This document shows, piece by piece, positions 45,061 through 51,560 of a DNA stretch of 64,000 bases. The stretch spans positions 439,164 through 503,163 of the forward strand of contig JANVYR010000001.1 of assembly GCA_030059665.1 (NCBI GenBank), in the 5' to 3' direction. The notes under the pieces are model-generated. The model made no database searches and was not told the DNA's origin. It worked only from the letters and a program-made list of their open reading frames with translations. This DNA is from Candidatus Calditenuis fumarioli (lineage in GTDB: Archaea; Thermoproteota; Nitrososphaeria_A; Caldarchaeales; Calditenuaceae). Positions within the stretch are counted from its first letter, which is position 1; each line of letters opens with the position of its first letter. A program made the position numbers and the translations under genes.

Positions 45061-45627
45061 TCAGATCTCATCGGCCATCTTCCTGAACCTCTCGTGGACG
45101 CCGTGACCCACCTCGACCTCCTCGACGTTCTCGTAGCAGCGCCCGACCTCAGATGCGTCTCCCACCCGCGCAACCGACTCGCCCATCGGGAAGAGAACCA
45201 GGTTCTCCTTCCGGATGTGGTCCCTGAGCAGGTTGACGTACTCCTCGCAGGTCGCCAACACGCCCGCAGCGGCCCCACTATCCCCGGACTCCAGCGCCCG
45301 CAGCAGCCCCTCGAGCCGTGCCACAAGCTCCCTCCCAACCTGGTGCTCGTAGAGCATCACGCCTATCGGGCCGCCCTCCCTAGGTATCCCCCTCCTCTCG
45401 AGGCAGGGGAAGAGGCAGCGCTCCTCCTTTCCGTGGTGGCAGCGGTCGATGAAGGTTCTCGCGAAGCTGACGAACCTCCTCAGGGGTTCGGGGTCGACCC
45501 TTCCCGAGGCCCGCCACTCCCTCATCCTCTCCTCGAGGCGCTCAAGGGCCCTCAGGATCACCTCGTGGTCCTCCATCAGGGAACCAGTGAGCGGGTGCTC
45601 CTCACCGTGCATCGCGGTCATCGACAC
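45061..45627 (-). CDS. Hemerythrin HHE-domain protein
   Basis: A 188-residue four-helix protein with the di-iron ligand pattern: MEDHEVILRALE, DRCHHGKEERCLFP, LYEHQVGREL and LRDHIRKENLVLFPMGE. The carboxylates needed for an oxo-bridged di-iron site are present. It may bind O2 or NO or act in iron homeostasis. The start could be GTG 45627 or ATG 45621. Confidence 0.9.
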   Translation of the reverse strand: MSMTAMHGEEHPLTGSLMEDHEVILRALERLEERMREWRASGRVDPEPLRRFVSFARTFIDRCHHGKEERCLFPCLERRGIPREGGPIGVMLYEHQVGRELVARLEGLLRALESGDSGAAAGVLATCEEYVNLLRDHIRKENLVLFPMGESVARVGDASEVGRCYENVEEVEVGHGVHERFRKMADEI

Positions 45628-45690
45628 CGCTCAACGGACGTTTCTGAAAAGCAGTCGTCTAACCCGTTCGCTTCGGGGAGGTGCGGATCC

Positions 45691-45722: not shown

Positions 45723-46400
45723 ATGGCGCTGGAGGAGGTCGCGAACAGGTGCAGGTTCCCGAGGGAGGCGCTCTACGACCTCCAGAGGCTGACCTGGTAC
45801 CTCCCGATGGACGGCGGGGCGCTAAAGGTCGGGACGCTCCCGATCACCGTCAAGGGCTGGGGGAAGGTGAGGAAGGTCGAGGTGAAGCAGGTGGGGACGA
45901 CGGTGGAGAGGGACAGGTCCCTGGCCTACGTCGAGGCCCAGAGGTACGTCGGCCACGTCCGGGCTTCCTTCGCCTGCAGGGTAGTGGAGGTCAACGACCA
46001 GCTGGCCGCTGAGCCCCACCTGATCCAGTCGGACCCCTACGGAAGGGGATGGCTGGCGACGGTGGTGCCGTTGAACGCTGGCGACGTCTCGGCGCTGAAG
46101 GGGTTCGAGGAGGTCAGGGACGAGCTGAGGAGGGAGATCACGGAGAGGGGGATCGTGTGCTTCAGGGAGGTGCCGGACCTCACGATACCGGCGATCGGGG
46201 TGGAGTGCAGCATGGCCCTGATGGTCCTGAAGGACCAGATCGATCAGGTCCCAGTGGGCACGCTGATACACCTCGTCGCGGAGGGGGACGAGTCGTCGGA
46301 GCAGGAGGTGATGAAGTGGTCCTCCATAACCGGACACGAGGTCGTCGACCTCTTCAGGGAGGGGAGGTTGGTGCACGTCCTCGTCAGGAGAACGAGGTGA
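45723..46400 (+). CDS. GcvH-like lipoyl-domain protein fused to a TusA-like domain
   Basis: A 225-residue two-domain protein. Residues about 28-128 align with glycine-cleavage H proteins (LKVGTLPITVKGWGKVRKVEV...VVEVNDQLAAEPHLIQSDPYGRGWLATV), but the position of the lipoyl lysine is Arg (R74 in VEAQRYVGH). Residues about 143-223 look TusA/SirA-like: Cys146 in GIVCFREVP, a helix ECSMALMVLKDQI, then VGTLIHLVAEG and SSITGHEVVDL. TusA carries persulfide sulfur, and GcvH-like LbpA proteins work in the sHdr sulfur-oxidation system. A sulfur-carrier role is therefore conceivable; catalysis of glycine cleavage is not. The ABC transporter follows six bases later. Confidence 0.7.
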   Translation: MALEEVANRCRFPREALYDLQRLTWYLPMDGGALKVGTLPITVKGWGKVRKVEVKQVGTTVERDRSLAYVEAQRYVGHVRASFACRVVEVNDQLAAEPHLIQSDPYGRGWLATVVPLNAGDVSALKGFEEVRDELRREITERGIVCFREVPDLTIPAIGVECSMALMVLKDQIDQVPVGTLIHLVAEGDESSEQEVMKWSSITGHEVVDLFREGRLVHVLVRRTR

Positions 46401-46406
46401 TGTCCG

Positions 46407-47318
46407 GTGTATGTGATAGAGTCGGAGGACCTCTGGAAGACCTACGACGGCCGGCGCTGGGCCCTCTCGGGCGTTGACCTGAGGGTCCGTGAGGGGGAGG
46501 TGCTCGCCCTCCTCGGGAGAAACGGCGCAGGGAAGACCACCTTCATCCGGATAGCCTGCAGCCTCCTCAAGCCCACCAGGGGATCGGTGAGGGTGCTGGG
46601 CATGGACGTCACCCAGGAGTCCTCGAGGGTGAGGGAGAGGATAGCGCTGGTGCCACAGGAGGGGAGGCCATCGAACCTGAACACGCCCTGGTCCCACGTC
46701 TACTACTACCTGATCGCGAGGGGCCTTCCGAGGTCCGAGGCCCGCGTCAGGGCGAGGAGGTACCTCCAGTCGCTGGAGCTCTGGGATGTCAGGGACGTGA
46801 TCTGCGGCAACCTCTCAGGCGGGATGCGGCAGAGGGTGCTGGTGGCCATGGCGCTCGCGACCGAGGCGGACGTGCTCTTCCTCGACGAGCCGACGATAGG
46901 GCTCGACCCGCTCAGCAAGCAGACCGTCTGGGAGCAGATAAGGGACAGCGCCGCTGAGGGGAGGACTGTTGTGGTGACCACGCACAACATGGAGGAGGCT
47001 GAGACGATCGCGGACAGGGTGGCGATCATCGACGAGGGCCGCATCGTGGCCTCCGGCACGCCCGAGGAGGTGAAAGCGAGGGTGGGTTACGAATACCGGG
47101 TTGACCTGAGGGGTGACGGGATCGAGGCGTCCGAGCTCAGCTCTTACGGGCTTGTCAGGAGGATAGGTGACCGGTACCGCGTCTACCTCTCCGATTCGAC
47201 CGCACGGGAGCTGCTGGATCTGGCGATAGCAAGGGGATGGACGGCCTCGCTCTCGAGGACCACGCTCGAGGACGCCTTCGTCCTGCTGGTGGGCGAGGTG
47301 GAGGAGCATGCGGGTTAG
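46407..47318 (+). CDS. ABC transporter ATP-binding protein
   Basis: A 303-residue ABC ATPase of the drug/daunorubicin (ABC-2) type: Walker A GRNGAGKTT at 37-45, Q-loop VPQE, signature LSGGMRQ at 136-142, Walker B VLFLDEP and H-loop TTHNMEEAE, then a C-terminal extension. The GTG start follows the previous gene by six bases, and its end overlaps the permease gene. Confidence 0.93.
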   Translation: MYVIESEDLWKTYDGRRWALSGVDLRVREGEVLALLGRNGAGKTTFIRIACSLLKPTRGSVRVLGMDVTQESSRVRERIALVPQEGRPSNLNTPWSHVYYYLIARGLPRSEARVRARRYLQSLELWDVRDVICGNLSGGMRQRVLVAMALATEADVLFLDEPTIGLDPLSKQTVWEQIRDSAAEGRTVVVTTHNMEEAETIADRVAIIDEGRIVASGTPEEVKARVGYEYRVDLRGDGIEASELSSYGLVRRIGDRYRVYLSDSTARELLDLAIARGWTASLSRTTLEDAFVLLVGEVEEHAG

Positions 47319-48069
47319 AGGCGCGCTCTCCGGTTTCCTCAGGTCCCTGTACGCCTCGACGATGCTCTTCGGCGTCCTGCCGTTCAAGCAGAACCCGTTC
47401 TGGGCCCTCTCGCCGGCCCTCGCGCCGTTCGCCTTCCTCCTCTTCCTCTCGATCTACAGGTTCCAGCAGGTCGTGCCGTTCGCCCTCATCGGCGGCCTCA
47501 TCTCGATCGTCGTCGCCAACTCGATATCGATGGAGAGCGATGCGGCGTTCAACAGGATCGTCCTAAGGCTCGACTCGATGTTCGCCCTGACGAAAGGAGG
47601 CCTGATCCCGTACGCAATTGGGCTGGCGCTCGGCAACCTGATCAACGCGGTTCCGGGCGTGGCCGTCTTCGCCGTGCTGCTCTGGACCATGGCAGGCATC
47701 ACGTCACCGCAGGCATGGGCAACGATGCTCGGGGCCCTCACGCTGATCTGGGCTGTCGTCTCCCTCCTCGGCTACCTCATCAGCACCTACGCGAGGGACA
47801 TAAGGGACCTCTGGGTCTACTCGCCGCTGATGACCGCGCTCCTCGGCTACCTGCCGCCGGTCTACTACCCGCTCGAGCTGCTGCCGGACCCGTTCCTCAG
47901 GGCCATCGCGTTCATCTCTCCCACTACCTCCGCAGCGAGGCTGATGCACAGCGCCGCCGGCCTCGTCAAGCTCGGCCCGGGGGAGTTCGCCGTCCTCTGG
48001 GCGATCCCTGCGGCCCACGCGGTCGTCTTCGCAGCGCTTCTGTACAGGAGGGTCAGGCGGCCCATCTGA
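47308..48069 (+). CDS. ABC-2 type transporter permease
   Basis: A 253-residue membrane protein with about six transmembrane helices and the ABC-2 layout, including the C-terminal SPLMTALLGYLPPVYYPLELLPDPFLRAIAFISPTTSAARLM motif region. It pairs with the upstream ATPase (11-base overlap) as an exporter. The substrate is unknown; drug, lipid or sugar export are all possible. Confidence 0.9.
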   Translation: MRVRGALSGFLRSLYASTMLFGVLPFKQNPFWALSPALAPFAFLLFLSIYRFQQVVPFALIGGLISIVVANSISMESDAAFNRIVLRLDSMFALTKGGLIPYAIGLALGNLINAVPGVAVFAVLLWTMAGITSPQAWATMLGALTLIWAVVSLLGYLISTYARDIRDLWVYSPLMTALLGYLPPVYYPLELLPDPFLRAIAFISPTTSAARLMHSAAGLVKLGPGEFAVLWAIPAAHAVVFAALLYRRVRRPI

Positions 48070-51167: not shown

Positions 51168-51471
51168 GTGATCCCGAGAGAGGGAGTTGAAAGCTGCTAC
51201 CGGGATCGGCACGTCAATCTCCTCTACCCATGCCCACGTGATCCCGAGAGAGGGAGTTGAAAGGACGCGGAGCAGAAGATCAGAAGTGGTGCGGTCAAGA
51301 AAGTATGTGATCCCGAGAGAGGGAGTTGAAAGGATATCATTCGTGGCCATGGCCCAGATCCTTAACCTGTCCCGGGTTCTTGTGATCCCGAGAGAGGGAG
51401 TTGAAAGCGTCAGTCTGGAGGTGTCAAAAAATACGTTACCAAAAAGTGATCCCGAGAGAGGGAGTTGAAAG
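51168..51471 (+). CRISPR. CRISPR array, five identical 26-nt repeats, four spacers
   Basis: Repeats at 51168-51193, 51238-51263, 51307-51332, 51382-51407 and 51446-51471 are identical. They begin GTGATCCCGAG and end GGGAGTTGAAAG. A TCCC/GGGA stem can fold inside. The four spacers are 44, 43, 49 and 38 nt, unusually variable. The 3' end GTTGAAAG would become the 8-nt crRNA 5' handle typical of type III systems. The leader lies on the left, so the newest spacer is the first. The array is separated from the cas operon by about 3.2 kb. Confidence 0.97.
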
Positions 51472-51560
51472 TCATGGGTGGCGGCCGCGTCATCCACAGC
51501 GCTCGCTGAGTCGAACGGGCCCGTTGCATCCGTAAATACTCGGACCGCAGGCCAGATCCG

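Follow-up and report, generated by a model that had tools for sequence, protein, structure and literature searches.

An archaeal LbpA–TusA fusion family with invariant cysteines, a dispensable lipoyl site and a probable rhodanese partner

A two-domain gene and its neighbors

We analyzed a 64,000-nucleotide stretch of DNA from Candidatus Calditenuis fumarioli (the window; its genome, G000, is 91% complete). A gene for a 225-residue protein lies on the plus strand at 45723..46400, in a frame that runs unbroken from an ATG at 45723 to a stop codon ending at 46400. An in-frame GTG at 45681 is a possible alternative start upstream; the starts of homologues fall near the ATG at 45723. Six base pairs 3′ of the gene, on the same strand, is a gene for a DrrA-like ABC exporter ATPase (46407..47318, assigned by a domain match), followed by a plus-strand gene for an ABC-2 type permease (47308..48069, Pfam ABC2_membrane). 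The ATPase gene is a probable operon neighbor. In our neighborhood survey, direct linkage of the two exporter genes to the fusion gene was confined to all four genomes of the g1 lineage and to G005. A divergent hemerythrin gene (45061-45627) was rejected as a partner because none of the other neighborhoods that we read has it next to the fusion. Elsewhere in the window, positions 51168-51473 hold a small CRISPR-like array with a 28-nt repeat in five copies, spaced at 64-75 nt and with the core GTGATCCCGAGAGAGGGAGTTGAAAG.

Both domains proposed in the preliminary description were borne out. In the N-terminal half (C10 to C146, 45750..46160, plus strand), Pfam GCV_H matched residues 25-135 with E = 1.1e-19, above the gathering cut-off, and this half aligned to H proteins and LbpA. 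In the C-terminal half (about residues 150-225, 46170..46397, plus strand), Pfam TusA (PF01206) matched residues 157-223 with E = 8.8e-7 and 29.1 bits against a cut-off of 28.6. AlphaFold2, supplied with a 17-member alignment, modeled two confident domains (pLDDT 93.7, pTM 0.86), the second of which has the strand-helix-strand-helix-strand-strand order of TusA. Foldseek searches of the PDB with the model returned the H-protein 1onl (target TM 0.89, E 5e-13) and TusA 3lvj_C (target TM 0.81, E 2e-5), and a distant Thermoplasmata member was modeled with the same layout (pLDDT 92.3). Together, the Pfam domains, the modeled layout and the Foldseek matches support the two-domain reading as correct. 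Pfam and NCBIfam profile searches found no DNA-binding or signaling domain in the protein. The NCBIfam GcvH models scored below their cut-offs (68.5 against 117, and 46.7 against 115.85), and the fusion also missed the NCBIfam TusA cut-off. Genes of this kind are therefore easily misnamed, because curated models match them just as sub-threshold GcvH or TusA.

Invariant cysteines and a drifting lipoyl position

Of 398 sampled genomes of the phylum, 32, from six families, carry the fusion. It is also present in named records of Caldarchaeum, Pelearchaeum, soil archaea and Thermoplasmatota, which were matched with a 7-row subset of the alignment as the query; the window protein alone gave no match against the named genomes. 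We then built a tree from the N-terminal half with the lipoyl column left out, using 36 fusions (from Caldarchaeales, soil archaea, ammonia oxidizers and Thermoplasmatota), 19 LbpA proteins and GcvH. All 36 fusions formed one clade (88/78; 92% of bootstrap trees), and LbpA and the fusions grouped together (97/90), separate from GcvH. The inner branching order is unsure because some branches are long. Tested members of two fusion-bearing families carry amoA of the archaeal type, and we take those families to be ammonia oxidizers on that account. In amoA-bearing genomes from the two families (L192, L193 and L194), the fusion lies ~16-23 kb from amoA. The intervening genes differ between the families (f41 and f45), so we do not claim a functional link with amoA.

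The fusion family is conserved and appears to be undescribed. A GcvH– or LbpA–TusA fusion was not described in the literature searched, which missed most subscription journals, and the main text of a survey of archaeal fusions mentions neither TusA nor GcvH (PMC11237513). Bacterial sHdr loci have lbpA directly followed by a separate tusA, an adjacency that suggests a route by which the fusion arose. Three near full-length tblastn matches (L048, L089 and L072) proved to be such adjoining lbpA and tusA genes and were rejected as fusions.

Three cysteines are invariant in the family. C10 (45750..45752, plus strand) was unchanged in the 35/35 fusions covering the position and in 19/19 LbpA of the tree set. 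C146 (46158..46160, plus strand), unchanged in 36/36 fusions, corresponds to the C-terminal cysteine of LbpA (PMC6067878). C162 (46206..46208, plus strand), also unchanged in 36/36, sits at the TusA active-site position, where it opens helix 1 of the TusA half (H162-168) in the AlphaFold2 model, within C-S-M-A rather than C-P-x-P. LbpA has C10 and C146 and lacks C162; in a survey of 95 proteins, sHdr LbpA was set apart from GcvH by two cysteines, one near each terminus (PMC6067878). C10 and C146 are the pair that marks sHdr-type LbpA, and C162 is the TusA cysteine. The preliminary description had named C146 as the sole candidate TusA cysteine in a changed CPxP motif; that assignment has to be replaced, since C146 is of the LbpA type and C162 is the TusA cysteine. 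Across the fusions CPxP has become C[SEAN]xx, the cysteine being kept in 36/36 and the prolines gone except for a CPET in L165, and their loss may weaken TusA-type chemistry. The CPET, which keeps the first proline of the motif, belongs to a second, divergent fusion paralogue of genome G299 (L165:6947-7612); the stretch around that gene has no rhodanese.

The lipoyl position behaves differently from the cysteines. Residue 74 (codon AGG, 45942..45944, plus strand) is Arg in the window protein, as had been claimed, and the 36 fusions carry Arg in 18, Lys in 14, Asn in two, and Ile and Val in one each. Lys was found in 19/19 LbpA of the tree set and in 44/44 standalone relatives, 43 of which are LbpA-like and retain both cysteines. 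On the tree we counted at least 11 switches between Lys and other residues at the fusion lipoyl site, and no cysteine changes. Pairwise dN/dS among the fusions was about 0.07-0.21, mostly lower in the TusA half, and by this measure the family, including its non-Lys members, is under purifying selection. With 36 intact homologues and low dN/dS, we ruled out a sequencing variant or pseudogene, and the survey thus removes the concern that homologues would share a conserved Lys from which the window protein had departed by error.

A rhodanese partner and the wider genomic context

We observed that a two-domain rhodanese is the conserved partner of the fusion family. Of 35 fusion genes, 25 adjoin the rhodanese gene, which in 13 cases lies upstream in the same orientation and in 12 is convergent with the fusion; four more have it within 4.4 kb. 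In two genomes of the f4 lineage the fusion and rhodanese genes overlap by 4 bp. The rhodanese was present in 31/32 fusion genomes, the exception being a genome 57% complete, versus 89/366 of the other sampled genomes (Fisher p 8e-17, a value that ignores kinship). The dependence is one-way, given the many fusion-free genomes that have the rhodanese. The protein is of the thiosulfate/3-mercaptopyruvate sulfurtransferase type, and we read its active-site loop from the sequence as CRIGERS. The window genus retains the rhodanese, although its gene is not linked to that of the fusion; the copy in the window genome, on contig C2:437033-437881, is 85% identical to that of G003.

The remaining neighbors depend on the lineage. 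ETF genes accompany the fusion in f4, and an ABC exporter does so in g1 and g3; g3 and g4 have a SIS-domain protein, and a single f47 locus has complex I genes. Among the neighbors surveyed, no acceptor gene was shared across lineages. At five f4 loci (L126, L128, L038, L040 and L041), etfA and/or an ETF-quinone oxidoreductase-like gene is followed by the rhodanese and the fusion on one strand. In two f4 genomes (L038 and L037), a gene for a ~100-residue protein stands beside the rhodanese, upstream; the L038 copy has no Pfam match. At L163:2914-10398 (G228), the fusion and the rhodanese lie within an apparent complex I (nuo-like) run, directly after what reads as a ferredoxin-like subunit.

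We also searched for the pathway in which LbpA and TusA are known. At the thresholds used, the window genome gave no match for sHdrB, for a lipoate ligase (neither PF03099 nor the sLpl type) or for GcvP, which was likewise unmatched across the window genus, and no further TusA was detected, so that the fusion holds the sole TusA domain found. Lacking matches for sHdrB, a lipoate ligase or another TusA, the fusion in this genome stands outside any sHdr pathway. The genome search raised by the preliminary description thus came back empty for sHdr components and yielded the two-domain rhodanese as the conserved partner instead. G003, of the window genus, and G025, of f4, have sHdr with a Lys-bearing LbpA, a ligase and a CPxP TusA in addition to the fusion, and the fusion is therefore a separate paralogue that has not replaced LbpA. 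One Caldarchaeales genome from the window genus has a complete-looking sHdr locus (lbpA, a ligase, two dsrE, tusA and sHdr subunits) at L116:3040-13907. In that genus the ordinary H protein (G000:C2:8189-8548; L002:1444-1860; L122, L176 and L177) lacks the lipoyl Lys, with Arg at the position in G000 and Gly in G001-G003; the other Caldarchaeales examined have Lys.

A proposed cysteine relay, its alternatives and known systems

We are confident that the gene encodes an LbpA–TusA fusion with a dispensable lipoyl site and a rhodanese partner. For the full mechanism, a lipoate-independent, cysteine-based relay of sulfane sulfur fed by the rhodanese, we put the chances at roughly even. The three cysteines are kept, the lipoate site is not, and the rhodanese travels with the gene, which suggests that the fusion is probably a lipoate-free sulfur relay. 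An sHdr-type LbpA domain, fused to a TusA domain, would have grown independent of lipoate. C162 would receive sulfane sulfur from the rhodanese in persulfide form; the LbpA-like domain would then take the sulfur over on C146 and/or C10 and offer it to an acceptor. Such a relay would run via the cysteines and would make a lipoyl arm unnecessary. Loading of C162 is proposed because TusA proteins and rhodaneses act in this way elsewhere: TusA proteins carry sulfur on their active-site cysteine, and the TusA-like TsuB splits thiosulfate to give a persulfide (PMC4175335, PMC11582611). We infer the onward step from C162 to C146 or C10 from conservation. The merged carrier suggested at the outset accordingly survives as the leading idea, favored by the grouping of the N-terminal half with sHdr LbpA and by the lbpA-tusA gene pairs of bacterial sHdr operons, and its placement in the sHdr pathway does not hold for the window genome.

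The main alternative is that Lys-bearing fusions might still be lipoylated, a possibility left by the 14 of 36 that retain Lys. In its fuller form, Lys lineages would remain lipoyl carriers, and Arg members such as the window protein would be relics decaying after the loss of lipoate metabolism. The window genus fits this in part, with an ordinary H protein that also lacks the lipoyl Lys, no GcvP match and, in G000, no lipoate ligase match. However, Arg fusions occur in genomes that have PF03099 ligases (G019 and G023) and a Lys fusion in one that has none (G005). The repeated switching at the lipoyl site, with Ile, Val and Asn also found there, and the purifying selection and full retention of cysteines in non-Lys fusions also speak against decay, and we consider this account unlikely.

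A conserved cysteine set, and tight coupling in f4 to the rhodanese and in g1 and g3 to the ABC exporter, could also befit a sensor of persulfides or thiols, one that regulates the rhodanese or a transporter rather than carrying flux. We found nothing to support the related suggestion of a regulator of sulfur transfer. The protein lacks a domain for DNA binding or signaling, and published work treats the TusA-family proteins of sulfur oxidation as carriers (PMC4175335, PMC6067878), which makes a sensor rather improbable. The f4 gene order of etfA, ETF-QO-like flavoprotein, rhodanese and fusion on one strand would suit a step of sulfane-sulfur oxidation that passes electrons to quinone via ETF and ETF-quinone oxidoreductase; this is very unlikely, for we saw the order in f4 alone and not in f1, soil archaea or amoA-bearing archaea. 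Nor do we favor a scaffold role, with a metal site or a structural disulfide made by the three cysteines and H218. The cysteines are conserved and H218 is kept in Caldarchaeales, but other fusions have Gln, Asn, Phe or Tyr in place of the histidine, and a metal site with H218 was rejected because the residue is not retained outside that order. C162 moreover occupies the TusA catalytic position, and C10 and C146 occur in LbpA, which has no C162; a scaffold is thus highly improbable.

More tentatively, and with slightly less than even confidence, we propose that in Nitrososphaeria-like archaea, ammonia oxidizers included, the fusion moves sulfur from the rhodanese to an acceptor on cysteines alone, as a class-wide principle of lipoate-independent LbpA. 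In LbpA, lipoate is put to an unusual use, outside central carbon metabolism, and the protein has two extra conserved cysteines. A family with fixed cysteines, a drifting lipoyl Lys and a fused TusA is a natural experiment on which part handles sulfur; if the proposal is right, what evolution retains of LbpA for this purpose is its pair of cysteines rather than lipoate. Ammonia-oxidizing and hot-spring archaea would gain a conserved, predicted sulfur-transfer pair of rhodanese and fusion, which the literature searched does not describe in them.

Compared with known systems, the fusion shares the H-protein fold and the N- and C-terminal cysteine pair with sHdr LbpA, such as Hyphomicrobium denitrificans LbpA2 (PMC6067878), and falls into one tree group with it, apart from GcvH. 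LbpA has a strict lipoyl Lys, its own ligase and an sHdr operon, whereas the window protein has Arg74 in a genome without a ligase or sHdrB match. GcvH shares the fold and the Pfam domain, but it has the lipoyl Lys, lacks the two cysteines and is separated in the tree (97/90); the window genus has no GcvP match. With E. coli TusA (3lvj) and Metallosphaera cuprina TusA (PMC4175335), the fusion has in common the fold and a catalytic cysteine at the start of helix 1; it differs in having C[SEAN]xx for CPxP and an attached LbpA domain, and in missing the NCBIfam TusA cut-off. The closest parallel in modules is the Rhd442–DsrE3C–TusA–LbpA route of H. denitrificans (PMC11582611), where rhodanese, TusA and LbpA-type modules likewise handle sulfane sulfur. 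There the proteins are separate, LbpA is lipoylated and the route feeds sHdr, whereas in the window protein TusA and LbpA are fused and the lipoyl Lys is missing, in a genome without sHdr.
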